Source: Pseudomonas oligotrophica (GTDB lineage Bacteria; Pseudomonadota; Gammaproteobacteria; Pseudomonadales; Pseudomonadaceae). Taken from it: 64,000 nt of DNA. The stretch spans positions 434,001 to 498,000 of the forward strand of contig NZ_JAKJRU010000001.1 in the NCBI RefSeq assembly GCF_021726475.1, read 5' to 3'. Each line of letters begins with the position of its first letter. Position 1 is the first letter of the stretch. A model generated the notes under the pieces. The model saw only the letters and a program-made list of their open reading frames with translations. It was not told the origin of the DNA and ran no database searches. A program made the position numbers and the translations under genes. Below, one piece after another: positions 8,974-40,269 of this stretch.

Positions 8974-9023
8974 GTGGTCCTCCTTTATATCTGGGCGGGG
9001 CGCCGGGGCGCCCCGCGCCTCGC

Positions 9024-9428
9024 TCAGGCGAGGGTTTCGGCCTCCAGCGGATAGACACCGCTTGCGTCGTGGACTTCGCGGCCATTGAGCGGCGGGTTGA
9101 ACACGCAGGCCAGCTTCATGTCCTCGCTGCCGCCGCGCAGCAGGTGCTCGTCGTGCTGGTCGAGCACGTAGAGCGTGCCCGGCTCGATCCGGTAGATCTT
9201 GCCGTCGGCGATGGTCTCGATCTCGCCATTGCCGCTGATGCAGTACACCGCCTCGAAGTGGTTCTGGTAGTGGATGTGGGTCTCGCTACCGGCGTAGATG
9301 GTGGTGATGTGGAAGGAGAAGCCGACCTTGTCGTCCTTGAGCAGCATGCGCGTGCTGTCCCAGGTACCGGTCTGGCTGTGGACCTTGCGCTCGGTCTTTT
9401 CGCACTCGGCCAGGGTTCTGACGATCAT
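9024..9428 (-). CDS. ectC: Ectoine synthase EctC
   Basis: A 134-residue cupin that cyclises N-gamma-acetyl-diaminobutyrate to ectoine. The N terminus [16 protein letters not shown] and the barrel motifs ([25 protein letters not shown], here described in parts: the His-Ile-His metal region and the Glu-Ala-Val-Tyr-Cys strand) are diagnostic. Length matches the family. It lies 10 bases after ectB and 50 bases before ectD. Confidence 0.97.
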
Positions 9429-9438
9429 CGCGGTGTCC

Positions 9439-10716: not shown

Positions 10717-11246
10717 GCGGGCTCCTTGAGCTCTTCTTCGAGTCGGGAAATGTCGAACGGACCGGCGCGATAGAGCACCTCGTCCTCGTGCTTGCCGGCG
10801 AAGTGGCTGTCGCGGCCGAACAGCGTGCGCGTCTGCGCCTCGACGCCGAGGCGGGCGAAGGCGCGGCGGAACAGCGCCTGGGACGCGCCGTTGTCCGGCG
10901 AGATGGTGGTTTCCAGGTAGCGCACGTCGTGTGCCCGGGCGACCCGGCCGACCAGTGCCAGCAGCATGCGCAGGGCCAGGCCCTGGCCACGCATCGAGCC
11001 GTCCACGGCCACCTGCCAGACGAACAGGGTGTCCGGGCGTTGCGGTGGGCGATAACCGGAGATGAAACCGACCAGCTGACCTTCGGCGGTCTCGGCGGCG
11101 ATGGCGGTATCGGCGAAGTCGGAACACTGCAGCAGGTTGCAGTACACCGAGTTGCTATCGAGGGGCTGGCAGCGCGCCACCAGCTGATGAAGGGGGTAAC
11201 CGTCGCCGTCGGTTGGACGACGGAGCAGTACGGTGGTGAAACTCAA
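10713..11246 (-). CDS. ectA: Diaminobutyrate acetyltransferase EctA
   Basis: A GNAT acetyltransferase that makes N-gamma-acetyl-diaminobutyrate. The acetyl-CoA loop (VDGSMRGQGLALRML) and LETTISPDNGAS are typical of EctA. I place the start at a TTG at 11246 (177 residues). It has an AAGG ribosome site 7 bases upstream. A good promoter at 11284-11313 would start the message downstream of the longer frame's ATG at 11294 (193 residues), which has no ribosome site. Homologues are often annotated with the longer start, so the 16 extra residues may be an artefact of DNA conservation. The protein beyond this point is unambiguous. Confidence 0.93.
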   Translation of the reverse strand: MSFTTVLLRRPTDGDGYPLHQLVARCQPLDSNSVYCNLLQCSDFADTAIAAETAEGQLVGFISGYRPPQRPDTLFVWQVAVDGSMRGQGLALRMLLALVGRVARAHDVRYLETTISPDNGASQALFRRAFARLGVEAQTRTLFGRDSHFAGKHEDEVLYRAGPFDISRLEEELKEPA

Positions 11247-20302: not shown

Positions 20303-20368
20303 GTCGCCTGTGATGGCCGGCGGACCCAGGGCGTCCACTTGCAGAACCAGGACCGATGGAGCTGCCTG

Positions 20369-21277
20369 ATGCAAGCCCTGCTTGAAGAAATACTCGACGA
20401 GGTGCGCCCGCTGCTCGGCCGCGGGCGCGTCGCCGACTACATCCCGGCGCTGGCCGACGTGGCGCCCGACCAGCTGGGCATCGCCGTGTGCAGCGCCGAG
20501 GGCGAGCTGTTCGCGGCCGGCGACGCGCGCACGCCGTTCTCGATCCAGAGCATCTCCAAGGTGTTCAGCCTGGTGCAGGCCATCGGCCACCGCGGCGAGT
20601 CGCTGTGGGAGCGCCTCGGCCACGAGCCCTCGGGGCAGCCGTTCAATTCGCTGGTGCAGCTGGAGTTCGAGCGCGGCCGGCCGCGCAACCCGTTCATCAA
20701 CGCCGGCGCCCTGGTGATCTGCGACATCAACCAGTCGCGCTTCGCCACCCCGGAGATCTCGCTGCGCGACTTCGTCCGCCACCTGTCCGGCAACCCGCAC
20801 GTCGTCTCGGATGCGCGGGTGGCCGAGTCCGAGTACCAGCACCGGGCGCGCAACGCGGCGATGGCCTACCTGATGCAGGCCTTCGGCAACTTCCACAACG
20901 ACGTCGAGGCGGTGCTGCGCAGCTATTTCCACCACTGCGCGCTGCGCATGAACTGCATCGACCTGGCCCGCGCCTTCGGCTTCCTCGCCCGCGACGGGCA
21001 CTGCCTGCAGAGCGGCGAGGCGGTGCTCACGCCGCGCCAGGCGCGCCAGGTCAACGCGATCATGGCCACCAGCGGCCTGTACGACGAGGCCGGCAACTTC
21101 GCCTACCGGGTCGGCCTGCCGGGCAAGAGCGGCGTCGGTGGCGGCATCGTCGCGGTGGTGCCGGGGCGCTTCAGCGTCTGCGTCTGGTCACCGGAACTCA
21201 ACGCCGCCGGCAACTCGCTGATCGGCATGGCGGCGCTGGAGGCGCTGTCGCAGCGCATCGACTGGTCGGTCTTCTGA
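20369..21277 (+). CDS. glsA: Glutaminase (serine-dependent, GlsA type)
   Basis: A 302-residue glutaminase that hydrolyses L-glutamine to glutamate and ammonia. The beta-lactamase-like Ser-x-x-Lys motif is in [12 protein letters not shown]; other family parts are [30 protein letters not shown] and [12 protein letters not shown]. The ATG with a GGAG site 7 bases upstream was chosen; the frame is open 30 bases higher without support. It lies 66 bases after sbtB and 69 before the carbonic anhydrase. Confidence 0.93.
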
Positions 21278-21346
21278 TGCACGCGGTGTCCGGCCGTGCC
21301 GCCGCCGCGTCCCACCCTTTTGAATGAAGTCCTTGGAGAAACGAAC

Positions 21347-22048
21347 ATGAGCGATGACAAGACGAGCGAAACCGCGCAGCAGGCCCTCGACGCCATCGTC
21401 GGCGGGGTCAAGCGCTTTCGCGAGGAGGTCTATCCGCAACAGCGCGAGCTGTTCGAGAAGCTTGCCTTCGAGCAGAAGCCGCGGGCGATGTTCATCACCT
21501 GCGCCGACTCGCGGATCATTCCCGAGCTGATCACCCAGAGCTCGCCGGGCGACCTGTTCGTCACCCGCAACGTCGGCAACGTGGTGCCGCCCTACGGGCA
21601 GATGCTCGGCGGCGTCTCCACCGCGATCGAGTTCGCCGTGGTGGCGCTCGGCGTGCAGCACATCATCATCTGCGGGCATTCGGACTGCGGCGCGATGAAG
21701 GCGGTGCTCGACCCGGCCCCGCTGCAGCGCATGCCCACGGTCAAGGCCTGGCTGCGCCACGCCGAGGTCGCCCGGCACGTGGTGGAGGAGAACTGCGGCT
21801 GCGCCAACGAGCACACCCTGGGCATCCTCACCGAGGAGAACGTGGTCGCCCAGCTCGACCACCTGCGCACCCACCCGTCGGTCGCTGCGCGCCTGGCCAG
21901 CGGCCAGCTGTTCATCCACGGCTGGGTCTACAACATCGGCACCAGCGAGATCCGCGCCTATGATGCGCAGGCCGGCGCTTTCCGCCTGATCGGTGACGGC
22001 CCGCTGCCGATGGCCACGCCGCGCCCGCGCTACCAGCTGCGCGGCTGA
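21347..22048 (+). CDS. can: Beta-class carbonic anhydrase
   Basis: A 233-residue enzyme interconverting CO2 and bicarbonate. Zinc ligands are Cys52, His111 and Cys114, with the Asp54/Arg56 dyad in CADSR and the HSDCGAM motif. A GGAGA ribosome site precedes the ATG. Neighbours sbtAB and pycAB make a bicarbonate supply role plausible. It meets ansA tail to tail after 13 bases. Confidence 0.95.
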   Translation: MSDDKTSETAQQALDAIVGGVKRFREEVYPQQRELFEKLAFEQKPRAMFITCADSRIIPELITQSSPGDLFVTRNVGNVVPPYGQMLGGVSTAIEFAVVALGVQHIIICGHSDCGAMKAVLDPAPLQRMPTVKAWLRHAEVARHVVEENCGCANEHTLGILTEENVVAQLDHLRTHPSVAARLASGQLFIHGWVYNIGTSEIRAYDAQAGAFRLIGDGPLPMATPRPRYQLRG

Positions 22049-22061
22049 GCCAGGCGGACGC

Positions 22062-23048
22062 TCAGTCCGCCAGTTCGCCGCACAGGTCGCGGGCGAACAG
22101 GCGTTCGACCTCGGCCTGGGGCAGGCCCGCGCCGAGCAGGGCGAACAGCTTGCCCAGCGCGGCCTCGCGGGTCATGCCGCCGCCGTTGACCACGCCGGCC
22201 TGGCGCAGGCGGCTGCCGGTGGCATAGACGCCGAACTCGACGTGCCCGGCCGGGCACTGGCTGATCGCCGCCAGCACCACGCCGCGGCGATGGGCCGCCT
22301 CCAGCGCCGCGATGAAGGCGGCATCGCCCGATGGCCCGGTACCGCTGCCGTAGCATTCGAGCAGCAGCGCCTCGACGTCACCGGCCAGCAGCGCCTCGAC
22401 CTGCGCCGCGCCGACCCCCGGATACAGCGGCAGCAGCGCCACCGCGGCGTTGCGCCGTGGCGTGCGGTAGTCCGGTGCGAGCGCGGCGGCCGGTGCCGCC
22501 AGCCGCGGGCGAGCGGCCTCGGCGAAGGCATCGAAGGCCTCGCTGCGCAGCTTGCTGACCCGCGCGCCGTGCAGCAGCGCGCCGTTGAAGTACAGCTGCA
22601 CGCCCTGCACCAGACCGGCCTGCAGCGCGCGCATGGCGCCGAACAGGTTCGGCCAGGCGTCGCTGTTCGCGGCGCCGGCCGGGCGCATGGAGCCGGTCAG
22701 CAGCACCGGCGCCGGCAGGCCGAGCAGCAGGAACGACAGGGCCGCCGCGCTGTAGGCCAGGGTGTCGGTGCCGTGCAGCAGCAGCACGGCGTCACAGCCG
22801 TCGTGCTCGACCGCCGCGCGGATGATTTCGGCCATCTGCAGCCAGTGGCGCGGCTGCATGTCGGCGCTGTCCAGCGGCGGCAGCATCTCGCGGAACGTCC
22901 AGTCCGGCAGGGGCGCGCGTTCCTCGGCCTGGCGCTCGCGCAGCCGCGCCTCGAAACCGGAGGCGGGCATCAGCCCGCTGGCGCTCTGCTGCATGCCGAT
23001 GGTGCCGCCGGTATAGAGCACCAGCAGCCGTTGGGGAGAATGCTTCAC
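22062..23048 (-). CDS. ansA: L-asparaginase (type I, cytoplasmic)
   Basis: A 328-residue asparaginase hydrolysing L-asparagine to aspartate and ammonia. The first catalytic Thr is in LYTGGTIGM near residue 13, and the second motif is LLHGTDTLAY. LLTGSMRPAG is also conserved. No signal peptide is present, which fits the low-affinity cytoplasmic type. The neighbouring aspartase and amino acid transporters place it in acidic amino acid catabolism. Confidence 0.93.
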   Translation of the reverse strand: MKHSPQRLLVLYTGGTIGMQQSASGLMPASGFEARLRERQAEERAPLPDWTFREMLPPLDSADMQPRHWLQMAEIIRAAVEHDGCDAVLLLHGTDTLAYSAAALSFLLLGLPAPVLLTGSMRPAGAANSDAWPNLFGAMRALQAGLVQGVQLYFNGALLHGARVSKLRSEAFDAFAEAARPRLAAPAAALAPDYRTPRRNAAVALLPLYPGVGAAQVEALLAGDVEALLLECYGSGTGPSGDAAFIAALEAAHRRGVVLAAISQCPAGHVEFGVYATGSRLRQAGVVNGGGMTREAALGKLFALLGAGLPQAEVERLFARDLCGELAD

Positions 23049-23199
23049 GCGCAGTCCTCACTCGCGCGGCGCAGGGCCGCAGGGTTGGGAAGGGGGCTTG
23101 GCGCAAGGCCGTTGCCGCTCCGGCGCGGCGCGCGCGAAGCGGAACAGACCCTAGCGGTTTTCCTGGCCGGGGCCAAGGCGAGCGGCGGCCCGGCAGGCT

Positions 23200-23219
23200 G
23201 CCCGGCGCAGGCGCCGGGC
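23200..23219. terminator. Possible hairpin after the AGCS symporter gene
   Basis: GCCCGGCGC and GCGCCGGGC form a 9-bp inverted repeat with a two-base centre, just downstream of the minus-strand symporter gene and upstream of ansA. No T run follows on either strand, so a termination role is only suggested by place. Confidence 0.35.
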
Positions 23220-23228
23220 ATGACGGGC

Positions 23229-24671
<1,443 letters not shown>

Positions 24672-24784
24672 GGCAATGTTCACCTTTTTGTCTTTGTTGT
24701 GTGCAGGGCCCGAGGTGGCGGGCCGCGCGAGGCTGCGATGGTCGACCAGCGACGGCACGCCGGACAATTTCGCAGCTGGCCGCG

Positions 24785-24819
24785 AAGTGACGCGACCTGA
24801 TGCTATAGTGGCGTCACTT
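24785..24819. promoter_or_regulatory. Inverted-repeat operator between the AGCS gene and its XRE regulator
   Basis: AAGTGACGC (24785-24793) and GCGTCACTT (24811-24819) are perfect 9-bp inverted arms separated by 17 bases. A -10-like TATAGT (24804-24809) lies between the arms and points toward the XRE gene. Binding of the regulator here would cover the promoter. Symmetry is certain; the binding protein is inferred. Confidence 0.6.
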
Positions 24820-24842
24820 GCGCCAGTTCTGCCGAGCCCGCC

Positions 24843-25661
24843 ATGACCTCCCACCTCGCCGAAAACCTCAAGCTGCTGTGCTGCCACTACCGCTCGATCG
24901 CCGAGGTCTGCCGGCGCCTGGCGATCAACCGCGCACAGTTCAACAAGTACCTGGGCGGGCAGAGCCGGCCGACGCCGTACAACCTCAAGCGCATCGGCGA
25001 CTTCTTCGGTGTCGAGGGCTACGAGCTGGAGCTGCCGCCCGAGCAGTTCGCCCAGCTGGTCGGCGCGCGCCACCCGGAAGTACAGGCCGGGCCGCGCACC
25101 GATCCGCTGCTGGCGCTGCTGCAGCCGCTGCGCGAGCACGCCGCCAGCCTGGCGCGCTACTGCGGCTACTACTTCGAATACGCCAACTGCATGTCGGTGC
25201 CCGGCAGCGTGCTGGTCTCGCTGGTGCAGCTGCGCGAGGAGGGCGGTCAGTTCCTGTTCGAGCGCCAGGAGCGCCAGGAGCGCGCCAGCCCGACCCGCGG
25301 CCAGGCCGAGGACTGGGTGCGCTGCCGCTACCTGGGCGCGGCGTTCGGCCTGCAGGACCGGCTGTTCCTGATCGACTACGAGTCGCTGACGCTCAACGAG
25401 ATGAGCCAGACCATCCTCATTCCCAGCTTCAAGAGCCGCATCACCCGGCTCAACGGGCTGAAGACCGGGGTCTCCTCCGGCGACCGCCGCACCCCGGCCT
25501 GCACCCGCGTGGTCTGGGAATACCTGGGCAAGGAGATCAACCGCGTCAGCGCCTATCGCCAGGTGATGCTCTACGCCCCGGACGACCCGCGCATCGACGC
25601 CGAGATCCGTGAGCGCCTGGCGACGCCGCACGTGGAGAGCGGGCTGTTCCAGATCGAATAG
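24843..25661 (+). CDS. XRE-family transcriptional regulator
   Basis: A 272-residue protein. The first ~65 residues form a helix-turn-helix (IAEVCRRLAINRAQFNKYLGG, then NLKRIGDFFGV) of the XRE/Cro type. The remaining ~200 residues form a domain I cannot name, with an aromatic Tyr-Cys-Gly-Tyr-Tyr-Phe-Glu-Tyr patch and several strands, possibly a ligand sensor. It diverges from the AGCS symporter gene, and converges on the dicarboxylate symporter gene 12 bases away. Control of the symporter is likely from the arrangement. Confidence 0.82.
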   Translation: MTSHLAENLKLLCCHYRSIAEVCRRLAINRAQFNKYLGGQSRPTPYNLKRIGDFFGVEGYELELPPEQFAQLVGARHPEVQAGPRTDPLLALLQPLREHAASLARYCGYYFEYANCMSVPGSVLVSLVQLREEGGQFLFERQERQERASPTRGQAEDWVRCRYLGAAFGLQDRLFLIDYESLTLNEMSQTILIPSFKSRITRLNGLKTGVSSGDRRTPACTRVVWEYLGKEINRVSAYRQVMLYAPDDPRIDAEIRERLATPHVESGLFQIE

Positions 25662-25673
25662 CCCGCCGCTGCG

Positions 25674-26933
25674 TCACTCCTTGTTGCTGCTGTCGTACAC
25701 CGCGCGGTCGAGTTCCTGCTCGCTGCGCCCGACCAGCGTGGTGGTCATCAGGTCGCCGGCGACGTTCACCGTGGTGCGCGCCATGTCGAGGATGCGGTCG
25801 ATCCCGGCGATCAGCGCCACGCCTTCCAGCGGCAGGCCGGCGGCGCTGAGCACCAGGCCGAGCATGATCAGCCCGGCGCCGGGGATGCCGGCGGTGCCGA
25901 TGGAGGCCAGCGTCGCGGTGAGGATGATCATCGCGTACTGGCCGGCGCCCAGCTCGATGCCGAAGGCCTGGGCGATGAACAGCGCCAGCACGCCCTGGTA
26001 GATCGCCGTGCCGTCCATGTTGATGGTGGCGCCCACCGGTAGCACGAAGCCGGCCACGCCTTCGGACACGCCGAGGTTCTTGCGTGCACATTCGATGGAC
26101 ACCGGCAGCGTGCCGGAGCTGCTCGAGGTGCTGAAGGCCACCGCCAGCGCCGGCGCGATGCCCTGGAAGAAACGCAGCGGATTGAGCCGCCCGAGCAGGC
26201 CGAGCAGCCCGCCGTAGACCAGCAGCACATGGGTGATGCTGGCGAGGTAGATCACCCCGATCACGCCGGCCAGCGGCAGCAGCACCTCGGCGCCGTGGCT
26301 GCCGACCACGCCGGCGGTCAGGGCGAACACGCCGATCGGCGCGACGCGCATCACCAGGTCGGTGAGCTTGTAGAAGGTCTCGGCCAGCGCATCGAACAGG
26401 CGCACCGCGGGCGCCGCGCGTTCGCCGACCAGGTTGATGCTCACGCCCAGGGCGATGGCGAAGACGATGATCTGCAGGATGTTGCCCTCGGCAAAGGCAG
26501 TGACCGGGTTGGCCGGCACCAGGCCGACCAGGATCGACACCAGCGAGGGCGCCTGCTTGGCCTGCTCATTGCCACTGGCGAGCATGTTCATCCCTTCGCC
26601 CGGGCTGAACAGCGCGCCGAACAGCAGGCCGATGCTCACCGCGAAGGCGGTGGTCACCAGGTAGATGGCGATGGTTTTCAGGCTGATGCGGCCGAGCTTG
26701 GCGCTGTCGTGCATCGAGGTGATGCCGGCCACCAGCGAGACGAACACCAGCGGCACGATGAGCATCTTGATCGCATTGAGGAACAGCGTACCGATCGGCG
26801 CCAGTGTCTGCGCGCCTTCACCGAAGGCCATGCCGGCGGCGGCGCCGAGGGCCAGGCCGAGAAGGATCTGCTGCCAGAGCGGCAGGCGGACGAGCAGGCG
26901 CAGGGGTGCGGAGAGGGTGGTACTCGGGGTCAT
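25674..26933 (-). CDS. Dicarboxylate/acidic amino acid:cation symporter (DAACS family)
   Basis: A 419-residue transporter of the GltP/GltT/DctA family. Signatures include MLIVPLVFVSLVAGI, the serine-rich re-entrant loop STSSSSGTLPVS, the VGATINMDGTAIYQG helix and the Asp-rich RILDMARTTVNV segment near the end, which contains the substrate and sodium sites. The RILDMARTTVNVAGD part favours amino acids (Glu, Asp or Ser) over C4 dicarboxylates. Nearby aspartase and asparaginase support aspartate or glutamate uptake. Confidence 0.9.
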   Translation of the reverse strand: MTPSTTLSAPLRLLVRLPLWQQILLGLALGAAAGMAFGEGAQTLAPIGTLFLNAIKMLIVPLVFVSLVAGITSMHDSAKLGRISLKTIAIYLVTTAFAVSIGLLFGALFSPGEGMNMLASGNEQAKQAPSLVSILVGLVPANPVTAFAEGNILQIIVFAIALGVSINLVGERAAPAVRLFDALAETFYKLTDLVMRVAPIGVFALTAGVVGSHGAEVLLPLAGVIGVIYLASITHVLLVYGGLLGLLGRLNPLRFFQGIAPALAVAFSTSSSSGTLPVSIECARKNLGVSEGVAGFVLPVGATINMDGTAIYQGVLALFIAQAFGIELGAGQYAMIILTATLASIGTAGIPGAGLIMLGLVLSAAGLPLEGVALIAGIDRILDMARTTVNVAGDLMTTTLVGRSEQELDRAVYDSSNKE

Positions 26934-27023
26934 GGGGCTTCCTGTTTGTTTTTATTGTGCGAACGGGCCGCACGCGCGGCCCGGCAAGCGAGCGCCCGGC
27001 GGCTGGCCGGGCGCAGAGGGGGG

Positions 27024-28448
27024 TCACACCGCCAGCGGGATCTGCCGCGGCGCGACCATGTTTTCCGGGCGCAGGATGTCGGCCAGCATGGCGTCGTCGA
27101 GCAGGCGCTCCTCGCGCACCAGCTCCAGCACGCCGCGGCCGCTGAGCAGCGCCTCGCGGGCGATGCGGGTGCTGTTCTCGTAGCCGATGTAGGGATTCAG
27201 CGCGGTGATCAGGCCGATGGAGTTCTCCACCAGCTCGCGGCAGCGCGCCTCGTTGGCGGTGATGCCCTCGATGCAGTGTTCGCGCAGCATGTCCATGGCG
27301 CGCTGCAGCAGGCGGATCGAGTCGAACAGCTTGTAGGCGATCAGCGGCTCCATCACGTTGAGCTGCAACTGGCCGCCCTCGGCGGCGAAGGTCAGCGCCA
27401 TGTCGTTGCCGATCACCTCGAAGGCGACCTGGTTGACCGCCTCGGGGATCACCGGGTTGACCTTGCCCGGCATGATCGAGCTGCCCGGCTGGCGCGGCGG
27501 CAGGTTGATCTCGTTGAAGCCGGTGCGCGGGCCGCTGGAGAGCAGGCGCAGGTCGCTGCAGATCTTCGACAGCTTCACCGCCAGGCGCTTGAGCATGCCG
27601 GAGAACAGCACGAAGGAGCCCATGTCCGAGGTGGCCTCGATCAGGTCGGCGGCCGGGCGCAGCGGCTGGCCGCTGATCTCGGCCAGGCGCTGCACGGCGA
27701 TGGCCTGGTAGCGCGGGTCGGCGTTGATGCCGGTGCCGATCGCGGTGCCGCCGAGGTTGACCTCCAGCAGCAGCTCGGGGGCGAAGCGGCGCAGGTGGCC
27801 GAGGTCCTCGCCGAGGGTGGTGGCGAAGGCTTGGAACTCCTGGCCGAGGGTCATCGGCACGGCGTCCTGCAGCTGCGTGCGGCCCATCTTCAGCACCTGG
27901 GCGAATTCCTCGCCCTTGCCGGCGAAGGCCTGGATCAGGCTGTCGAGGCTGGCCAGCAGGGTGTCGTGGCCGAGCAGCAGGCCGAGGCGGATCGCCGTCG
28001 GGTAGGCGTCGTTGGTCGACTGCGCCATGTTCACGTCGTTGTTCGGGTGCAGGTAGCGGTACTCGCCCTTGACGTGGCCCATGGCCTCCAGGCCCAGGTT
28101 GGCGATCACCTCGTTGGCATTCATGTTGGTCGAGGTGCCGGCGCCGCCCTGGATCATGTCGACCACGAACTGCTCGTGGAACTCGCCGCGGATCAGCCGT
28201 GCGCAGGCCTGGCTGATGGCCTCGTGCTTGGCCGGGCTGAGGTAGCCCAGCTCGCGGTTGGCGTCGGCCGCGGCCTGCTTGACCATCGCCAGCGCGGTGA
28301 CCAGCTTGGGGTAGTGCGACAGCGGCACGCCGGACAGGCGGAAGTTGTTCACCGCGCGCAGCGTCTGGATGCCGTAGTAGGCGTCGGCGGGGACCGGGAG
28401 GGTGCCGAGGAGGTCGTATTCGATACGCGATGATGCAGATTCGGACAT
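27024..28448 (-). CDS. aspA: Aspartate ammonia-lyase (aspartase)
   Basis: A 474-residue fumarase/aspartase-family enzyme that converts L-aspartate to fumarate and ammonia. The family signature GSSIMPGKVNPVIPE is present, with GGAGTSTNMNANEVIAN upstream and the N terminus RIEYDLLGTLPVPADAYYGIQT typical of aspartase. The ATG giving MSESASSRIE was chosen; 33 further codons upstream look non-coding. It diverges from a LysR gene, the same arrangement as PA5428-PA5429. Confidence 0.93.
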   Translation of the reverse strand: MSESASSRIEYDLLGTLPVPADAYYGIQTLRAVNNFRLSGVPLSHYPKLVTALAMVKQAAADANRELGYLSPAKHEAISQACARLIRGEFHEQFVVDMIQGGAGTSTNMNANEVIANLGLEAMGHVKGEYRYLHPNNDVNMAQSTNDAYPTAIRLGLLLGHDTLLASLDSLIQAFAGKGEEFAQVLKMGRTQLQDAVPMTLGQEFQAFATTLGEDLGHLRRFAPELLLEVNLGGTAIGTGINADPRYQAIAVQRLAEISGQPLRPAADLIEATSDMGSFVLFSGMLKRLAVKLSKICSDLRLLSSGPRTGFNEINLPPRQPGSSIMPGKVNPVIPEAVNQVAFEVIGNDMALTFAAEGGQLQLNVMEPLIAYKLFDSIRLLQRAMDMLREHCIEGITANEARCRELVENSIGLITALNPYIGYENSTRIAREALLSGRGVLELVREERLLDDAMLADILRPENMVAPRQIPLAV

Positions 28449-28525
28449 GATGTTTGCTTGGCCTTTCTTGCCAGGTGGTGGGCTTGGACGGCTTAAAATT
28501 AAGGCTTCAGCCCCATGCGTGGCCA

Positions 28526-28563
28526 ATGCCGTTGCTTGCTGCCCCATGCAGGAACGGCATAAT
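28526..28563. promoter_or_regulatory. Inverted repeat and promoter between aspA and its LysR regulator
   Basis: ATGCCGTT (28526-28533) and AACGGCAT (28553-28560) are perfect 8-bp inverted arms. A promoter-like TTGCTG (28536-28541), 16 bases, CATAAT (28558-28563) overlaps the right arm and points to the LysR gene. This fits autoregulation by the LysR protein, which is inferred. Confidence 0.45.
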
Positions 28564-28607
28564 GTCGGCGTGACTCACCGATGCCGGCAAGCGTGTGGAG
28601 GGCTGCC

Positions 28608-29522
28608 TTGAACCTGGAAACCAAATGGCTGGAGGATTTCATCGCCCTGGCCGCGACCCACAGCTTTTCCCAGGCGGCGCAGCGCCGCCACGTCACCCAG
28701 CCGGCCTTCAGCCGGCGCATCCGCTCGCTGGAGGAGGCCCTCGGCCTGACCCTGGTCGACCGCAGCTGCACGCCGGTACAGCTGAGCGAGGCCGGGCAGC
28801 TGTTCCTGGTCACCGCGCGCAGCCTGGTCGAGCAGCTCGGCGACGTGGTGCGCCATCTGCATCACCTCGAAGGCCAGCAGGGCGAGGTGCTGCAGGTGGC
28901 CGCCGCGCATTCGCTGGCGCTGGGCTTCTTCCCCGGCTGGGTCGCCGGGCTGCGCCAGGAGGGCCTGAACCTGGCGACCCGCCTGGTCGCGGCGAACGTC
29001 GGCGATGCGGTGCACCTGCTGCGCGAGGGCGGCTGCGACCTGATCGTCGCCTACTACGACCCCGATGCCGCGCTGCAGTTGGACCCGGAGCTGTTTCCCT
29101 CGCTGCACCTGGGGCGCACCGAGATGCTGCCGGTCTGCGCGGTCGGCGCCGACGGCCAGGCGCTGTTCGACATCGACAGCGGCCAGACGGTGCCGCTGCT
29201 GGCCTACAGCGCCGGCGCCTTCCTCGGTCGCTCGGTGAACCTGCTGCTGCGCCAGCGCGCACTGCGCTCGACCATCGTCTACGAGACGGCCATGGCCGAC
29301 AGCCTGAAGAGCATGGCGCTGCAGGGCCTGGGCATCGCCTGGGTGCCCAGGCTGTCGGCGCAGCGCGAACTGGAACGCGGCGAACTGGTGGTCTGCGGCG
29401 GCGAACAGTGGCGGGTGCCGCTGGAGATCCGCCTGTATCGCTGCGCGCTGATGCGCAAGGCTGCCGTGCGCTTGCTCTGGCGGCGCCTGGACGAGCGTTC
29501 CAGAGCGGCTGCGCCGGCCTGA
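28608..29522 (+). CDS. LysR-family regulator next to aspA
   Basis: A 304-residue LysR-type regulator with the N-terminal winged helix (FSQAAQRRHVTQPAFSRRIRSLEE) and an effector domain. I chose a TTG start with a GGAGG site 7 bases upstream, giving the N terminus NLETKWLEDFIALA found in homologues; an ATG 27 bases further up lacks a good site. Divergent placement from aspA suggests it controls aspartase. The effector is unknown. Confidence 0.87.
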   Translation: MNLETKWLEDFIALAATHSFSQAAQRRHVTQPAFSRRIRSLEEALGLTLVDRSCTPVQLSEAGQLFLVTARSLVEQLGDVVRHLHHLEGQQGEVLQVAAAHSLALGFFPGWVAGLRQEGLNLATRLVAANVGDAVHLLREGGCDLIVAYYDPDAALQLDPELFPSLHLGRTEMLPVCAVGADGQALFDIDSGQTVPLLAYSAGAFLGRSVNLLLRQRALRSTIVYETAMADSLKSMALQGLGIAWVPRLSAQRELERGELVVCGGEQWRVPLEIRLYRCALMRKAAVRLLWRRLDERSRAAAPA

Positions 29523-29717
29523 GCGGAGCGCGCGCAGAAACGGCGATCCGCTAAAAGCGGCGAACGACGGGAAACAGCCGGCGCAGGGCGGCGTTCAGGG
29601 CGAACTTGGTTCGTGTTACAAAAAAACCAGCGTGTTGGGCAACTTTCGTTTCGCCTGCTGTCTTAGCTGAGCATTCCATGCCATGGCCAGGCCGGACTCA
29701 GCCAAGGAAAGACCGTC

Positions 29718-32456
29718 GTGAACCCCAAACTCGATCCGGCCGGCACCCGCCCGGGGCCGGCCTCCCCTGCGCTCGAGGGGCCTGTCGGAGCGGCGACGCT
29801 CCAGCAGGCGTTCGAGCAACTCGCTGCGACTTTCGCCGACTGTCCAGCCGTGCTCTCCACGCGCTTCGATCCCCTCGACTTCCGCGGCCTGCAGCGTTTC
29901 ATCGAAACCACCCGCGGCCAGTTGCGCCAGGCAGGCCTGGGCCGCGACGCGCGCATCGGCGTGCTGCTGCCCGAGCCGGCCCAGGCGGCGGTAGCGATCA
30001 CCGCGGTCGCCTGTTCGGCGGTCGCCGTGCCGCTCGATCCACGGCTCGGCCCGGTGGAGCTGGCGCAGTTCCTCCAGCAACTGCCGCTCGACGCCATGCT
30101 GGTCGAGGCTGACGGCGCGGCCGAGGCGCATGCCGCCGCACGCCGCCATGGCCTGATGCTGATCGAGGCCGAGCCGGCCGAGGACGGCACCCCGACGCTG
30201 CAGCTGACGCTGCCCGGCGCGCGCCAGCCGGTCGCCGACGAGCCGCCGCGGGCCGATGCGCCGGCGTTCATCCTGCGCAGCTCGGGGACCACCGCGCTGC
30301 CCAAGCTGATCCCGTTCAGCCATCGCAACATGCTCACCGCCGCGCACAAGTGGCAGCAATGGTTCGGCCTGGATGCCGGCAACCGCTGCCTGTGCGTCTC
30401 GGCGCCCTACTATTCGCATGGCCTGAAGGTGACCATCCTGACGCCGCTGCTCAGCGGCGGCAGCGTCGCCTTCCCGCTGAGTCCGGCGGTGGTCGACCTG
30501 CACGAATGGTTCGAGACGCTGCAGCCGACCTGGTACTCGGCCGGCCCGGCGCTGCACCGTGCCATCCTCGAGGCCGGTCGCACGCATCCGCATGACCTGG
30601 CCCGGCACCGGCTGCAGTTCGCCTCGTCGGGAGGTGCGCCGCTGGGCCAGGACATCCTCGACGACTTCGAGCGGGTGCTCGGCTGCAAGCTGCTGGAGCA
30701 CTACGGCTCCAGCGAGGCCGCGCAGATCGCGGTCAACACGCCGCTGCCGGGCGAACATCGTGCCGGCAGCGTCGGCCGGCCGTGGCCGGGCACCCTGAGC
30801 ATCGTCGACGAGGCCGGCCAGCCGGTGACGCCCGGCGCGCGCGGCGAGATTCGGGTGCGCGGCGCCACCGTCATGTCCGGCTACCTGGGCAACGAGGCGC
30901 TCAATGCCGAGGTGCTGCGCGACGGCTGGTTCCACACCGGCGACATCGGCAGCCTCGACGAGGACGGCTTCCTGCACCTGCACGGGCGCCTGCGCGAGGT
31001 GATCAACCGCGGCGGCGAGAAGGTCAGCCTGCCGGAGGTCGACGGCGCGCTGCTGCGCCATCCGGCGGTGCTCGAGGCCGCCGCCTTTGCGGTGCCGCAC
31101 CCGCGCCTCGGCCAGGACGTCGCCGCCGCGGTGGTGCTGCGCCCCGGTGCCACGGCCACCTCCGCCGAGCTGCAGCAGTTCCTGCATGGCGAGCTGGTCT
31201 ACTTCAAGGTGCCGCGACGCGTACAGGTGATCGACGAACTGCCGCGCGGCCTGACCGGCAAGGTGCTGCGCCACCGGCTGGCCGAGCAGTACCTCGCCGA
31301 GCGCGACGCGCGTGCCCGCGCCGCGGTCGAGGCCGAGGTCGACGAAGGCTCGACACCGCTGGAGCAGGAGGTGCTGGCGCTCTGGCGGCGGCTGCTGAAA
31401 ACCGATGCGGTCGGCCTCGACGACAATTTCCTCGACGCCGGCGGCGACTCGCTGCTGGCCACCGAGATGCTCGCCGAACTGGAGCAGCGCCTGGGCCGGG
31501 TGATTCCCGAGTCGCTGCTGATCAGCGCCGAGACCGCGCGCGATTTGGCCACCCAGCTGGAATACCTGGCCTCGCACGACATCCCGGTGATCGATTTCAA
31601 CCCGCAGCCCGGGCGCGCCACGCTGTTCTGGTTCCACGGCGACTTCGCCCACGGCGGTTACTACATCCGCCGCCTGGCGCGCCTGCTCGGGCCGCAGCAG
31701 CCGCTGAGCGCGATCGCGCCGCACGGCATGGCCAGCGAGGCGATCCCCGCCTCGGTGGAGGCGATGGCCCGCGAGCGCCTGCCGCTGATCCTCGAGCGCC
31801 AGCCCCACGGGCCCTATCGCATCGGCGGCTACTGCAACGGCGCGCTGGTGGCCTTCGAGGCTGCGCGCCTGTTGATCGAGGCCGGCGAGCAGGTCGAGAT
31901 CGTCGCGCTGATCGACCCGCCGACGGCCAACGTGCGGCCCTGGTCGCGGGCGATCCTGCGCACGCTCGACCGCTGCCTGCCCGATGCCAGCCTGGCGCGG
32001 GCCTACGAGGCGCTCAGCCGTTTCGGCGAGACCAGCAAGTGGCCGTACCCCAAGCGCCTGGCCAACCTCGCCGGCAAGCTCGGCAGCAAGGGCGCCCTGT
32101 GGCTCAGGCAGCGCCTGGCCGGGCAGGCGCCGGAGCCGCCGTCGGCGCGCGATCGCGAGGTCCACGCGCGCTTCCTGCGCTACTCGCTGGTGATGGCGCG
32201 CTACCTGCCGCAGCCGATCGCTGCGCCGGTGGTCTACTTCTCGGCGGACTACACCAGCCGGGCCTGGCGCAACATGGGCGAGCGCTTCGAGAGCTACGAC
32301 GTGCAAGGCGGCCACCACCGCTGCGTGAAGGACTACACCGCCTCGATCGCCACGCCGCTGCGTGCGCTGCTCGAGGAATCCACCGGCGCATCCGGCCCCA
32401 CCGGGCTGATGCCCCTGGCCAAACCGGCCGAACAGGACACGGCAGTGCCGCGGTGA
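29718..32456 (+). CDS. Free-standing A-PCP-TE synthetase (NRPS-like, aryl/acyl-activating)
   Basis: A 912-residue three-domain protein. Residues ~25-525 form an AMP-forming adenylation domain: SSGTTALPKLIPFSH at ~187, EHYGSSEAAQ, FHTGDIGSLDEDG, and the catalytic Lys at 515 in TGKVLR. A carrier domain at ~540-610 has Ser578 in DAGGDSLLA for phosphopantetheine. A thioesterase at ~625-885 has GYCNG with Cys706 as nucleophile, Asp733 and His866 or His867. No condensation domain is present. The next gene, 52 bases on, makes protocatechuate from 3-dehydroshikimate, so an aryl acid substrate is plausible; the TE could release, lactonise or dimerise it. No phosphopantetheinyl transferase gene is near. 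Confidence 0.85.
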   Translation: MNPKLDPAGTRPGPASPALEGPVGAATLQQAFEQLAATFADCPAVLSTRFDPLDFRGLQRFIETTRGQLRQAGLGRDARIGVLLPEPAQAAVAITAVACSAVAVPLDPRLGPVELAQFLQQLPLDAMLVEADGAAEAHAAARRHGLMLIEAEPAEDGTPTLQLTLPGARQPVADEPPRADAPAFILRSSGTTALPKLIPFSHRNMLTAAHKWQQWFGLDAGNRCLCVSAPYYSHGLKVTILTPLLSGGSVAFPLSPAVVDLHEWFETLQPTWYSAGPALHRAILEAGRTHPHDLARHRLQFASSGGAPLGQDILDDFERVLGCKLLEHYGSSEAAQIAVNTPLPGEHRAGSVGRPWPGTLSIVDEAGQPVTPGARGEIRVRGATVMSGYLGNEALNAEVLRDGWFHTGDIGSLDEDGFLHLHGRLREVINRGGEKVSLPEVDGALLRHPAVLEAAAFAVPHPRLGQDVAAAVVLRPGATATSAELQQFLHGELVYFKVPRRVQVIDELPRGLTGKVLRHRLAEQYLAERDARARAAVEAEVDEGSTPLEQEVLALWRRLLKTDAVGLDDNFLDAGGDSLLATEMLAELEQRLGRVIPESLLISAETARDLATQLEYLASHDIPVIDFNPQPGRATLFWFHGDFAHGGYYIRRLARLLGPQQPLSAIAPHGMASEAIPASVEAMARERLPLILERQPHGPYRIGGYCNGALVAFEAARLLIEAGEQVEIVALIDPPTANVRPWSRAILRTLDRCLPDASLARAYEALSRFGETSKWPYPKRLANLAGKLGSKGALWLRQRLAGQAPEPPSARDREVHARFLRYSLVMARYLPQPIAAPVVYFSADYTSRAWRNMGERFESYDVQGGHHRCVKDYTASIATPLRALLEESTGASGPTGLMPLAKPAEQDTAVPR

Positions 32457-32508
32457 TCCCGCGGATTGCCCACGGAACCCACGAGGTTGCGCTGTTAAGG
32501 AGCAACGG

Positions 32509-34431
32509 ATGAAACGCTCGATCGCCACCGTGTCGCTCAGCGGCACCCTGCCGGAGAAGCTGGAGGCGGCCGCCGCGGCCGGCTTCGACGGCATCGAATT
32601 GTTCGAAAACGACCTGCTCTACCACTCCGGCAGCCCGGCGGACATCCGCCGGCGCTGCGCGGACCTGGGCCTGGCAGTCACGCTGTTCCAGCCGTTCCGC
32701 GACTTCGAGGGTTGCCCGCGCGAGCGCCTGGCGCGCAACCTCGAGCGCGCCGAACGCAAGTTCGACCTGATGCAGGAGCTGGGCTGCGAACTGATGCTGC
32801 TGTGCAGCAACGTGCAGGCCGATGCGCTGGGTGAACGCGAGATCCTCGCCGGCGACCTCGCGCTGATCGCCGAGCGCGCCGGTGCGCGGGGCCTGCGGGT
32901 GGGCTACGAGGCGCTGGCCTGGGGTCGCCAGGTGAAGACCTGGCGGCAGGTGTGGGAGTTGGTGCGCGCGGTCGACCACCCGGCGCTGGGGGTAATCCTC
33001 GACAGCTTCCACACCCTGGCCCTGCGCGACGATCCCGGCGGTATCGCCGATATTCCCGGCGAGAAGATCTTCTTCGTGCAACTCGCCGATGCGCCGCTGC
33101 TGGCAATGGACGTGCTCGACTGGAGCCGGCATTTCCGCTGTTTCCCGGGGCAGGGCGAGTTCGACCTGGCCGGCTTCCTCGCCCCGGTGCTGGCGGCCGG
33201 CTACCGCGGGCCGCTGTCGCTGGAGGTGTTCAACGACAGCTTCCGCGCCGCCCCGCCGCGCGGCATCGCCGCCGACGGCCTGCGCGCACTGCAGTATCTG
33301 GAGGAGCGCACGCGGCTGCGCCTGGCCGCGGGCGAACCGCGTGACGGCCTGGCGCAGCCGCTGTTCGCACCGCCGCCGGCAGCCCGCTACGACGGCATCG
33401 AGTTCCTCGAGTTCGCCGTCGACGAGGCGCATGCCGCGCGGCTCGGCGAATGGTTGCAGCGCCTCGGCTTCGCCCGCGCCGGGCGGCACCGCTCCAAGGA
33501 CGTGCTGCTCTACCGCCAGGGTGACATCAACATCGTGATCAACGCCGAGCCCTATTCGTTCGCCCACAACTACTACCTCGCCCATGGCCCCTCGGTGTGC
33601 GCCATGGCGCTCAAGGTCGACCGCGAGGCGCCGAGCCTGGCGCGCGCCTGTGCCTTCGGCGGCCAGCCCTACCGCGGGCTGATCGGGCCGAACGAGCGAC
33701 AGGTGCCGGCGGTGCGCGCACCGGATGGCAGCCTGATCTACCTGGTCGAGCCGGGGGCGCCGGGGCAGGGGCTGTATGAGGTCGATTTCCGCCTGGATGG
33801 CGAGGCGTGCCCGGACGGCGCACTGCAGCGCATCGACCACATGGCCACGGCGCTGCCGGCCGACAGCCTGGCCAGCTGGGTGCTGTTCTACCGCAGCCTG
33901 TTCGACTTCGAGGCCGGCGACGAGCTGCTGGTGCCCGATCCCTACGGCCTGATGAAGTGCCGCGCGGTGCGCAGCGCCTGCGGCCGGGTGCGCCTGCCGC
34001 TGAACACCTCGCAGGACCGCAACACGGTGATCGCCCAGGCGCTGTCGAGCTACCGTGGCGCCGGCGTGCACCATGTCGCCTTCGCCTGCGACGACATCTT
34101 CGCCGAGGTGGCGCGGGCCCAGGCCGCCGGCGTGCCGCTGCTGGAGATCCCGCGCAACTACTACGACGACCTGGCGGCGCGCTTCGATTTCGACGAGGCG
34201 ATGCTCGCCGACCTGGCGCGCTACAACGTGCTCTACGACCGCGACCCGGCTGGCGGCGAGCTGTTCCACGTCTACACCGAGCCGTTCGCCGGGCGCTTCT
34301 TCTTCGAGATCCTCCAGCGTCGCGGCGGCTACGATGGCTACGGCACGGCCAACGTCGCCGTGCGCCTGGCGGCCATGGCCAAGCGCGCCCGGATGCTGGC
34401 GGCCGGGGGTGTCGAACCGGCTGCGGCCTGA
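32509..34431 (+). CDS. quiC: 3-dehydroshikimate dehydratase fused to an HPPD-like domain (QuiC type)
   Basis: A 640-residue two-domain enzyme. Residues 1-~280 form a xylose-isomerase-like TIM barrel with metal-site parts VGYEALAWG, VILDSFHTLA, FVQLAD and LSLEVFND, as in AsbF/QuiC, which dehydrates 3-dehydroshikimate to protocatechuate. Residues ~295-630 are a vicinal oxygen chelate domain like 4-hydroxyphenylpyruvate dioxygenase, with its likely iron ligands His444, His522 and Glu600 retained. P. putida has the same fusion. The ribosome site AAGGAG lies before the ATG. In quinate users it feeds the beta-ketoadipate route; here it follows a synthetase gene, which suggests a biosynthetic supply role. 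Confidence 0.9.
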   Translation: MKRSIATVSLSGTLPEKLEAAAAAGFDGIELFENDLLYHSGSPADIRRRCADLGLAVTLFQPFRDFEGCPRERLARNLERAERKFDLMQELGCELMLLCSNVQADALGEREILAGDLALIAERAGARGLRVGYEALAWGRQVKTWRQVWELVRAVDHPALGVILDSFHTLALRDDPGGIADIPGEKIFFVQLADAPLLAMDVLDWSRHFRCFPGQGEFDLAGFLAPVLAAGYRGPLSLEVFNDSFRAAPPRGIAADGLRALQYLEERTRLRLAAGEPRDGLAQPLFAPPPAARYDGIEFLEFAVDEAHAARLGEWLQRLGFARAGRHRSKDVLLYRQGDINIVINAEPYSFAHNYYLAHGPSVCAMALKVDREAPSLARACAFGGQPYRGLIGPNERQVPAVRAPDGSLIYLVEPGAPGQGLYEVDFRLDGEACPDGALQRIDHMATALPADSLASWVLFYRSLFDFEAGDELLVPDPYGLMKCRAVRSACGRVRLPLNTSQDRNTVIAQALSSYRGAGVHHVAFACDDIFAEVARAQAAGVPLLEIPRNYYDDLAARFDFDEAMLADLARYNVLYDRDPAGGELFHVYTEPFAGRFFFEILQRRGGYDGYGTANVAVRLAAMAKRARMLAAGGVEPAAA

Positions 34432-34580
34432 TGTCCCAGGGGCGCTGCCGGCCGCGCGGAGCGGGGCTGGCAGCGGTGCCCGGGCGATCAGCGGAGGCTG
34501 CGCCTGGCTGGCTACGTGCTATCATCGCGCGCTTTCGCCAGATCTCCTCTTAGCGACCCTGCAACGCGCTGGAGCAAGTC

Positions 34581-37443
<2,863 letters not shown>

Positions 37444-37454
<11 letters not shown>

Positions 37455-38538
37455 AAACCTGCGCGACCTGACCGTGGTGGTCATCGACGACATCCGCGCC
37501 AACCTGCGCCTGCTGCAGGCCAGCCTGCGCGCCTTCGGCATGCGCCAGGTGGTCGGCTTCTCCGACCCGGCCGAGGGCCTCGCCTGGCTGCGCGACAACT
37601 CCTGGGACCTGCTGCTGCTCGACCTCGACATGCCGCAGCCCAACGGCTTCGAGGTGCTCCGGCAGCTCGCCGACCGCGACCCGAGCTGCTCGCCGGTGAT
37701 CATCGTCACCGCCCTCGGCGACGTCGAGAACCGCCGCCAGGGCCTGGAGCTGGGCGCCGACGACTACGTCAGCAAGCCGCTGGACCTCACCGAGCTGATG
37801 CTGCGCGTGCGCAGCAAGCTGCAGCTGGCCCACGCCAGCCGGGCGCTGCGCCAGGAGCGCGCGCAGCTCGAGGACAAGGTCGCCAGCCGCACCGAGCAGC
37901 TGCGCAGCAGCTACGAATCGCTGATCCGCAGCCTGACCCTGGCGGCGACCTTCCGCGACAACGAGACCGGCAACCACATCCTGCGCATCGGCGAATCGGC
38001 GGCGCTGTTCGCCGGCGCGCTGGGCCAGGCCGCCGAGGCGGTCGAGCTGATCCGCCTGGCCGCGCCGATGCACGACATCGGCAAGATCGGCATCCCGGAC
38101 CAGATCCTGCTCAAGCCCGGACGACTGAGCGACGACGAGCGGCAGACCATGAACCGCCACCCGGGCATCGGCCACGAGATACTCACCACGGCCGGCCAGT
38201 CGCCGCTGCTGGCACTCGCCGCCGAGATCGCCCTGCATCACCACGAGAAGTGGGACGGCAGCGGCTACCCCGCGGGGCTGGCCGGCACGGCGATCCCGCT
38301 GTCGGCGCGCATCGTCGCGCTGTGCGATGTCTACGATGCGCTGCGCACCGCGCGGCCGTACAAGCCGGCCTGGTCGGCCGAGCGCGCCCAGGGCTACCTG
38401 CGCGAGCAGGCCGGGCTGCATTTCGATCCCGAACTGGTCACGCTGTTCGGCACGCTGGCCGGGCCGATCGAGGCGCTGCTGCAACGCCTGCCGGACGACC
38501 CGGTCGAAGGTGCCGGGGATCGCGAGCCGCGCGGCTAG
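37444..38538 (+). CDS. Response regulator with HD-GYP cyclic-di-GMP phosphodiesterase
   Basis: A 364-residue two-domain protein with a GTG start inside the end of the kinase gene (11-base overlap), implying coupled synthesis. The receiver (~8-125) has acceptor Asp60 in LLLLDLDMPQPNGF and Lys in VSKPLDL. A coiled linker follows. The HD-GYP domain (~165-350) has His210-Asp211 in MHDIGKIGIPD and the GYP triplet at 274-276 in DGSGYPAGL. It should hydrolyse cyclic-di-GMP when phosphorylated by the upstream kinase, probably lowering biofilm formation and raising motility. Confidence 0.92.
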
Positions 38539-38656
38539 GCGCTATACTGCGCGGCCCCTCGAAGCGGCAGCCGCTGCCGCTTCTGACTTTCCGGGTCGCG
38601 CCATCCAGCGATCCGCATAACGATGCGCCCCCGGGCGCCCGACGAGAGGCACGACG

Positions 38657-39148
38657 ATGAGCGCACTGGTAGGCGTGATCATGGGCTCCAAGTCCGACTG
38701 GTCCACCCTGAGCCACACCGCCGAGATGCTGGAAAAGCTGGGCATCCCCCACGAGGTGACGGTGGTTTCCGCGCACCGCACCCCCGACCTGCTCTTCCAG
38801 TACGCCGAACAGGCCGAAGCCCGTGGCCTGCGCGTGATCATCGCCGGTGCCGGCGGGGCCGCCCACCTGCCGGGCATGTGCGCGGCCAAGACCCACCTGC
38901 CGGTGCTTGGCGTGCCGGTGCAGTCCTCGATGCTCTCGGGCGTCGACTCGCTGCTGTCGATCGTGCAGATGCCCGCCGGCGTGCCGGTCGCCACCCTGGC
39001 CATCGGCAAGGCCGGCGCGGTCAACGCCGCGCTGCTCTCGGCGAGCATCCTCGGCCACGAATTCCCCGAGTACCACGCCGCACTCAAGGCGTTCCGCGAG
39101 GAGCAGACCCGCACGGTGCTCGACAACCCGGACCCGCGTCAGGCCTGA
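38657..39148 (+). CDS. purE: N5-carboxyaminoimidazole ribonucleotide mutase
   Basis: A 163-residue class I PurE. It moves the carboxyl group of N5-CAIR to give CAIR in purine synthesis. [11 protein letters not shown] at the N terminus, VVSAHRTPD with the catalytic His, and [12 protein letters not shown] are family motifs. A TATACT -10-like box lies at 38543-38548 upstream. It is cotranscribed with purK, 35 bases downstream. Confidence 0.97.
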
Positions 39149-39183
39149 GCCGCCCGGCTGGCCATTGCAATCAGGTGCAAACC

Positions 39184-40269
39184 ATGAAAATCGGTGTGAT
39201 CGGTGGCGGCCAGCTGGGCCGCATGCTGGCTCTGGCGGGCACTCCGCTGGGCATGACCTTCGCCTTCCTCGACCCGGCGCCGGACGCCTGTGCCGCGGCG
39301 CTCGGCGAACACCTGCGCGCCGACTACGACGACAAGGACCACCTGCGCCGGCTGGCCGACGAGGTCGACCTGGTGACCTTCGAATTCGAGAGCGTGCCGG
39401 CCGAGACCGTGGCCTTCCTCTCGCAGTTCGTGCCGGTCTACCCGAGCGCCGAGTCGCTGCGCATCGCCCGTGACCGCTGGTTCGAGAAGTCGATGTTCCG
39501 CGAACTCGGCATCCCCACGCCGGAATTTGCCGACATCCAGTCGCAGGCCGACCTGGATGCCGCGGCGGCCGCCATCGGCCTGCCGGCGGTGCTCAAGACC
39601 CGCACCCTGGGCTACGACGGCAAGGGCCAGAAGGTCCTGCGCACGGCGGCCGACGTCGCCGGCGCCTTCGCCGAGCTGGGCAGCGTGCCGTGCATCCTCG
39701 AGGGCTTCGTGCCGTTCAGCGGCGAGGTCTCGCTGGTCGCGGTGCGCGGCCGCGACGGCGAGACCGCGTTCTATCCGCTGGTGCACAACAGCCACGAGGC
39801 CGGCATCCTGCGACTGTCGGTGGCCAGCAGCAACCATCCGCTGCAGCAGCTCGCCGAGGACTACGTCGGCCGCGTGCTGGCCAAGCTCGACTACGTCGGC
39901 GTGCTGGCCTTCGAGTTCTTCGAGGTCGACGGCGGCCTGAAGGCCAACGAGATCGCCCCACGCGTGCACAACTCCGGGCACTGGACCATCGAAGGCGCCG
40001 AGTGCAGCCAGTTCGAGAACCACCTGCGCGCGGTGGCCGGCCTGCCGCTGGGCTCGACCGCCAAGCTCGGCGAGAGCGCCATGCTCAACTTCATCGGCAG
40101 CGTGCCGGCGGTGGACAAGGTGATCGCCATCGAGGACTGCCACCTGCACCACTACGGCAAGGCCTTCAAGGCCGGCCGCAAGGTCGGCCACGCCACCCTG
40201 CGCTGTCCGGATCGCGCCACCCTCGACCGGCAGATCACCGCGGTCGAATCGCTGATCGAGCGCGGCTGA
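39184..40269 (+). CDS. purK: N5-carboxyaminoimidazole ribonucleotide synthase
   Basis: A 361-residue ATP-grasp enzyme that makes N5-CAIR from AIR, ATP and bicarbonate. The ATG with N terminus MKIGVIGGGQLGRMLALAG was chosen; upstream codons in this frame overlap purE and are not coding. LGYDGKGQ is the ATP loop and NEIAPRVHNSGHWT the C-terminal metal/phosphate stretch. It pairs with PurE directly upstream, and is another consumer of bicarbonate in this window. Confidence 0.97.
   Translation: MKIGVIGGGQLGRMLALAGTPLGMTFAFLDPAPDACAAALGEHLRADYDDKDHLRRLADEVDLVTFEFESVPAETVAFLSQFVPVYPSAESLRIARDRWFEKSMFRELGIPTPEFADIQSQADLDAAAAAIGLPAVLKTRTLGYDGKGQKVLRTAADVAGAFAELGSVPCILEGFVPFSGEVSLVAVRGRDGETAFYPLVHNSHEAGILRLSVASSNHPLQQLAEDYVGRVLAKLDYVGVLAFEFFEVDGGLKANEIAPRVHNSGHWTIEGAECSQFENHLRAVAGLPLGSTAKLGESAMLNFIGSVPAVDKVIAIEDCHLHHYGKAFKAGRKVGHATLRCPDRATLDRQITAVESLIERG

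Follow-up and report, generated by a model that had tools for sequence, protein, structure and literature searches.

A patchily inherited two-gene cassette of Pseudomonas oligotrophica and its relatives pairs an A-PCP-TE synthetase with a QuiC-type dehydratase and probably builds a catechol-containing small molecule

In the biosynthesis of petrobactin, the dehydroshikimate dehydratase AsbF supplies protocatechuate to AsbC/AsbD; dehydratases of this activity do not yield alpha-keto acids. In quinate catabolism, the same reaction is carried out by two-domain enzymes such as QuiC1 and QsuB, in which the dehydratase is fused to an HPPD-like domain, a layout that PMC7442255 presents as ordinary for QuiC, while assigning no role to the HPPD-like domain in characterised relatives and reporting no activity of QsuB on protocatechuate. 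Among synthetases with an adenylation-thiolation-thioesterase (A-T-TE) order and no condensation domain, the characterised nonribosomal peptide synthetase (NRPS)-like enzymes of the quinone/furanone type so far all use aromatic alpha-keto acids, according to PMC9047271. Here we describe a locus of Pseudomonas oligotrophica that shares features with each of these systems. It lies in a window of 64,000 nucleotides (contig NZ_JAKJRU010000001.1 of assembly GCF_021726475.1, positions 434,001 to 498,000; coordinates below count from the first base of the window) and consists of a free-standing synthetase with adenylation (A), peptidyl carrier protein (PCP) and thioesterase (TE) domains, followed by a QuiC-type dehydratase. 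The pair is a conserved, patchily inherited unit that is gained and lost whole, and it probably builds a catechol-containing small molecule that is apparently undescribed.

The synthetase gene (29718-32456, + strand) has a GTG start and encodes 912 amino acids with the Pfam domain order PF00501, AMP-binding_C, PP-binding and Thioesterase, an assignment based on Pfam, phmmer, fold comparison and residues kept in orthologs. The quiC reading frame (32509-34431, same strand) starts 52 bases past its stop, and its 640-residue product comprises a xylose-isomerase-like barrel and then an HPPD-like part. It is classed as a cassette subtype of the QuiC-type 3-dehydroshikimate dehydratases from the NF042435 model, from a match over nearly its whole length to the P. 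putida fusion protein 5HMQ, from its active-site residues and from a clade of its own. Both reading frames, their spacing and their domains confirm the initial annotation, made from the sequence alone, which had also noted the lack of a condensation domain; Pfam at E <= 0.001 agrees for both proteins.

Among 56 genomes of the genus, here taken as Stutzerimonas and including the source genome (G000; G-numbers designate genomes and L-numbers loci), the synthetase is found in 21, at 71-100% identity, and the cassette QuiC lies directly behind it in all 21, with order and strand kept (the synthetase of G017 is read as two frames and that of G019 is cut by a contig end). The synthetase is under purifying selection, with a ratio of nonsynonymous to synonymous substitution rates (dN/dS) of 0.08-0.28 in the five genome pairs compared, and this, together with the invariant order and strand, argues for a pairing beyond chance. 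The stable association of the two genes had been proposed in the initial annotation, which named rare adjacency as the outcome that would speak against it; adjacency is not rare in the genus, and one genome of another genus (G138) carries the synthetase without an adjacent dehydratase. At the level of the family, where 398 genomes were sampled out of a larger set, 23 lie above the limit (E <= 1e-60): the same 21 genus genomes, G138 at 64% identity and G285, where the match covers merely the A domain at 35%. At the same limit, 369 genomes drawn from the class give nothing above 41% identity besides the gene itself, and plasmids give four records at 31.8-36.3%. On a Gemmobacter aquarius plasmid (L154:11902-14523), a distant synthetase relative stands behind two hypothetical genes, in another context. 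Distant A-T-TE-like proteins (26-35% identity; L039, L056, L140/L158, L154, L155, L156 and L157) give no functional clue, since no QuiC or kinase-sensor match occurs in the DNA around them. A literature search, with most subscription journals outside its coverage, found no published description of the synthetase-QuiC pair.

The pair occupies two genomic sites. At site one, in 17 genomes, it stands between a LysR gene and a sensor-kinase gene, ahead of purE (for G018 and G019 this is read from partial contigs); at site two, in four genomes (G027, G015, G007 and G044), it stands between a carbonic-anhydrase-like gene and a kinase of the same family (names given by eye), with one extra gene between the carbonic-anhydrase-like gene and the pair in G027, and the kinase is followed by an asparaginase-like gene in all three genomes whose gene list extends that far. 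Other genomes have the same flanks without the pair, both at site one (G035 compared with G032, G047 with G004, G043 with G008) and at site two (G011 with G027), and these empty sites measure 27-99 bases where carriers hold about 5 kb; at site two of G034, compared with G007, about 1 kb of other DNA stands in place of the pair, which makes this comparison less clean. At site one the block runs from near the end of the LysR gene to 86-100 bases before the kinase start, and the variable block consists of the two genes only. The early impression that the block looks inserted is supported by relatives whose LysR gene leads straight into the kinase gene and purE. Loss is documented in G047, because it retains the last 19 bases of quiC, identical to those of G004 (0 of 500 shuffles as good), and because its kinase falls among those of pair carriers in the kinase tree. 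Three other unpaired genomes show no such remnant, shuffles reaching the score in 69 (G035), 146 (G043) and 149 (G030) of 500. Trees, drawn with midpoint roots, are concordant for synthetase and QuiC on the main groups. The kinases of G000 and G003 stand apart from the other site kinases of the genus, whereas in the pair trees both genomes join the other site-one carriers, and this difference in placement hints at exchange of the pair between lineages. A foreign origin finds no sign in composition: the overall GC content of the pair and that at third codon positions resemble those of the genes on either side, and in tetranucleotide distance the pair comes 11th among 60 stretches.

Upstream of the synthetase lies a promoter-like motif (29638-29666, + strand), GGCAACTT-N14-GTCTTAG, whose AAC-N16-GTC layout we take to resemble an extracytoplasmic function (ECF) sigma promoter. 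In the form GGCAACTT-N14-GTCTNAG it aligns upstream of the synthetase at both insertion sites, despite different flanking genes, and is exact in 19 of the 20 genus carriers with upstream DNA, the remaining one (L119) having one mismatch; it is not seen in G138. Since it is single-copy in its own genome (3.98 Mb) at up to 2 mismatches, where a backward-read control pattern gives 2, the motif may serve a private regulator. Its weight rests on conservation, as chance would already give 0.51 matches in the window alone with up to 3 mismatches allowed. Across 28400-39200, a sigma-70 promoter scan gave none, a terminator scan gave two weak candidates, the same as in shuffles, and an Rfam scan gave zero matches.

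The cassette QuiC proteins form one clade, separate from 11 quinate-type QuiC proteins. The protein of the window scores 1145.9 bits on NF042435, below the curated equivalog cut-off of 1200, as do all six cassette proteins tested (972-1155, five of them scored as matched stretches and hence slightly short), whereas the four quinate-type proteins tested lie above it (1211-1297). All ten dehydratase active-site residues, as listed in PMC7442255, are present in 32 of 32 proteins (21 cassette, 11 quinate-type). In the HPPD-like domain, the 2-His-1-Glu metal residues are present in 17 of the 20 cassettes that cover them, including that of the window, while in G015, G007 and G044 both metal histidines are replaced, by Gln and Arg. 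Because the dehydratase site is intact in all cassettes and the HPPD-like metal site is lost in three, the likely output of the cassette QuiC is protocatechuate. The same replacements speak against the alternative offered in the initial annotation, that the carrier is loaded with something the HPPD-like domain makes, as does the fact that such a fusion is usual for QuiC (PMC7442255).

The genomic company of the two QuiC types also differs. Of 57 genomes, 14 have a gene pcaH, for protocatechuate 3,4-dioxygenase, above the curated cut-off: each of the 11 that carry a quinate-type QuiC (G000, G002, G014, G036, G041, G042, G046, G049, G052, G055 and G138), one further cassette genome (G029), and two without a QuiC match (G021 and G045). 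As pcaH thus accompanies the quinate type in 11 of 11 genomes and the cassette in 2 of 21, and LigA occurs in none of the 21, the cassette QuiC is probably biosynthetic rather than catabolic, and a purely catabolic role is disfavoured; absences in G018 weigh less, because that genome is merely 73% complete. Nine of the 35 genus genomes without the synthetase have a QuiC, and no quinate-type QuiC was found at E <= 1e-100 in the 20 cassette genomes other than G000. Comparison of the proteins and genomes leaves the dehydratase function, and its uncoupling from protocatechuate cleavage and catabolism, well supported, in line with the initial annotation, which placed the dehydratase in a candidate natural-product pathway.

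We favour reading the pair as a small biosynthetic cassette, with a probability of roughly 0.55: QuiC would make protocatechuate, and the synthetase would load it and release it as a catecholic amide or ester. A catechol-type product is probable because a protocatechuate maker adjoins the synthetase in genomes that mostly seem unable to degrade protocatechuate. From homology and the intact active site, the dehydratase part of QuiC would convert 3-dehydroshikimate, an intermediate of the shikimate pathway, into protocatechuate; the A domain would adenylate an acid, most likely protocatechuate, and load it on Ser578 of the carrier; and the TE would take the acyl group onto Cys706 and pass it to a small acceptor (an amine, a hydroxyl or a second protocatechuate). 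The genome has one match to the phosphopantetheinyl transferase family, in a 243-aa frame. The cassette comes with its own promoter-like element and is gained or lost as a unit upstream of an older sensor-kinase gene. As in the AsbF and AsbC/AsbD steps of petrobactin, protocatechuate made by a dehydroshikimate dehydratase would go to an acyl-activating enzyme and a carrier; here, in place of separate proteins, activation and carrier reside in a single A-PCP-TE protein, and the dehydratase is of the QuiC type. Since the block holds two genes only, no petrobactin machinery is present within it, as anticipated when petrobactin was called unlikely: neither an NRPS-independent siderophore (NIS) synthetase nor separate AsbC, AsbD or AsbE genes occur in it, the search for NIS synthetases having been confined to the block.

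Key residues of the synthetase are conserved. The specificity-code positions, placed by eye from motifs, read S233, H234, K237, A275, S304, G305, H328, Q336, I337 and K515, and these pocket residues, Lys515 of motif A10 and Ser578 of the carrier are identical in 22 of 22 sequences, save Val at 337 in G015 and G044; a pocket this polar could accommodate either a dihydroxybenzoate or a small dicarboxylate. As the TE nucleophile, Cys706 is kept in all 21 sequences covering it, that of G138 included. A cysteine nucleophile is also found in the thioesterases of the beta-lactone and beta-lactam formers ObiF1 and SulM, and here too an Asn follows it, as in the Gln-Cys-Asn of SulM (PMC11298585). Unlike the relocated Asp of ObiF and SulM, the likely catalytic D733 is, as read from the sequence, in the customary position, past the strand that comes next to the nucleophile helix in sequence order, and an amino-acid substrate is not apparent.

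Several observations weigh against the protocatechuate-loading cassette. By sequence, the A domain is closest among solved structures to oxalyl-CoA synthetases (270.6 bits to 6qjz, phmmer), and in the fold comparison, made for the A domain only of a whole-protein model with a mean predicted local distance difference test score (pLDDT) of 74.6, it gives Z 50.4 to 5ie3 and 48.7 to 6qjz (root mean square deviation 2.3, 493 residues), the best structure of another kind reaching 45.3. The TE model is too poor to use (mean pLDDT 46.4). G138 has a solitary A-PCP-TE synthetase (L138:8985-11720) with neither QuiC nor kinase adjacent, yet with identical pocket residues and the Cys nucleophile, and its single QuiC match, found on a separate contig, clusters with the quinate-type proteins. 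Two cassette genomes (G000 and G029) do have pcaH above the cut-off, and most others have weaker matches to the pcaH model, which we read as related ring-cleaving dioxygenases; the LigA search that was negative in the 21 cassette genomes was positive in G138, and covered with pcaH only two of the routes of protocatechuate use.

Because the A domain resembles oxalyl-CoA synthetases (5ie3, 6qjz and 8aff, its nearest solved relatives by sequence and by model) more than aryl-acid activators, a small polar or dicarboxylic acid is a possible substrate, although those enzymes stand alone and the A domain here is fused to a PCP and a TE. The A domain could then load another acid, for instance a small hydroxy- or dicarboxylic one, and protocatechuate or a product from it would be the acceptor, its hydroxyl acylated by the Cys TE. 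This alternative, which would keep QuiC essential and accommodate the conserved polar residues S233, H234, K237, S304, H328 and Q336, is the best of those considered, and we put it at about one chance in five, as fold kinship does not fix specificity, the polar residues could equally bind catechol hydroxyls, and the block holds no second acid-making gene.

A second alternative concerns the gene that follows. The kinase gene (34581-37454, + strand) encodes a hybrid sensor histidine kinase with PAS, HisKA, HATPase and receiver domains, identified by domain search, neighbourhoods and tree, whose periplasmic part gives a weak dCache match, below the Pfam cut-off, and a weak match to chemoreceptors such as PctB. 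It is followed by a gene for a receiver-HD-GYP protein (37459-38538, + strand, start codon not fixed; domain search and neighbourhoods). A made-and-sensed signal system of pair, hybrid kinase and HD-GYP protein, like RpfF-RpfC-RpfG, would account for the kinase adjoining the pair at each of the two insertion sites (kinase and pair share a contig in 20 of 21 genomes; the kinase frame is broken in G005, and in G018 the contig ends inside quiC), and for receiver-HD-GYP genes trailing kinase relatives at four other loci (L176, L179, L180 and L184) as in the window. We consider it improbable. The N-terminal part of the kinase occurs in 158 of the 398 family genomes, mostly without the pair, and in the tree only short branches lie between the kinases of close genomes without and with the pair (G035/G032, G047/G004), which gives no hint of specialisation. 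An HD-GYP gene is at the site in merely 2 of the 20 cassette loci covering it, that of the window and that of G003, the kinases of the others ending before the receiver, so that synthase, hybrid kinase and HD-GYP protein are not inherited together here as in RpfF-RpfC-RpfG. An extended -10-like box (TGCTATCAT at 34517-34525, + strand), found by alignment upstream of the kinase gene, is conserved as TG-N-TAT-N-ATC in all 10 loci compared that have the pair and in 6 of the 8 that do not (it is absent from G051 and G055), and since it is kept with and without the pair, one operon of pair and kinase is unlikely. The kinase is favoured as an old neighbour, older than the pair, because it is also found where the pair is absent, usually with a promoter box of its own, and shows no divergence by pair status. 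It would be a long shot that the adjacent kinase reads a protocatechuate-derived amide or ester as an extracellular signal, the two-gene synthase plugging into a pre-existing kinase/HD-GYP pathway and acting as a mobile "voice", exchanged among strains, to an older "ear".

It is also hard to sustain that the cassette quiC is a relocated catabolic quinate gene with the synthetase as an unrelated neighbour. Its length and active site equal those of catabolic QuiC, and the source genome has pcaH together with a second QuiC (contig C15, L136:9492-13462), 75% identical, which by sequence is a quinate-type copy and lies near TetR-like, shikimate-dehydrogenase-like and aroQ-like genes (named by eye; the neighbourhood of a quinate-type gene was viewed in this genome). 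Against this stand the invariable adjacency at two genomic sites, the separate clade, and the 19 of 21 cassette genomes without pcaH above the cut-off and 21 of 21 without LigA. A dimerising A-T-TE enzyme akin to the quinone/furanone synthetases, with an aromatic alpha-keto acid as its substrate and QuiC incidental, shares the three-domain order but is likewise very doubtful: it leaves the fixed pairing unexplained, the dehydratase makes a benzoic acid and no alpha-keto acid, alpha-carbon dimerisation would on chemical grounds be closed to protocatechuate because it has no alpha-CH2, and the A domain is nearest to oxalyl-CoA synthetases (the quinone/furanone family being compared here by published description).

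Elsewhere in the window, the block upstream of the locus (20339-28547) contains glutaminase, asparaginase, dicarboxylate symporter and aspartase-like lyase genes (Pfam) and an AGCS-like transporter gene (by eye); its asparaginase-like gene adjoins the kinase in several genus genomes. At 8056-10728, genes for a PhyH-family dioxygenase and a class-III aminotransferase (Pfam) presumably resemble ectD and ectB of the ectoine cluster.

If the proposed chemistry is true, a TE that releases one aryl acid by means of a Cys nucleophile would offer a compact way of making aryl amides or esters by biocatalysis. With two genes only, the cassette points to a catechol-type metabolite, apparently undescribed, in a common environmental genus, and related strains with and without it at the same place constitute a natural experiment. 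A QuiC-type dehydratase, of a kind normally annotated under quinate catabolism, moreover seems to have been recruited to biosynthesis, which bears on the annotation of this family.

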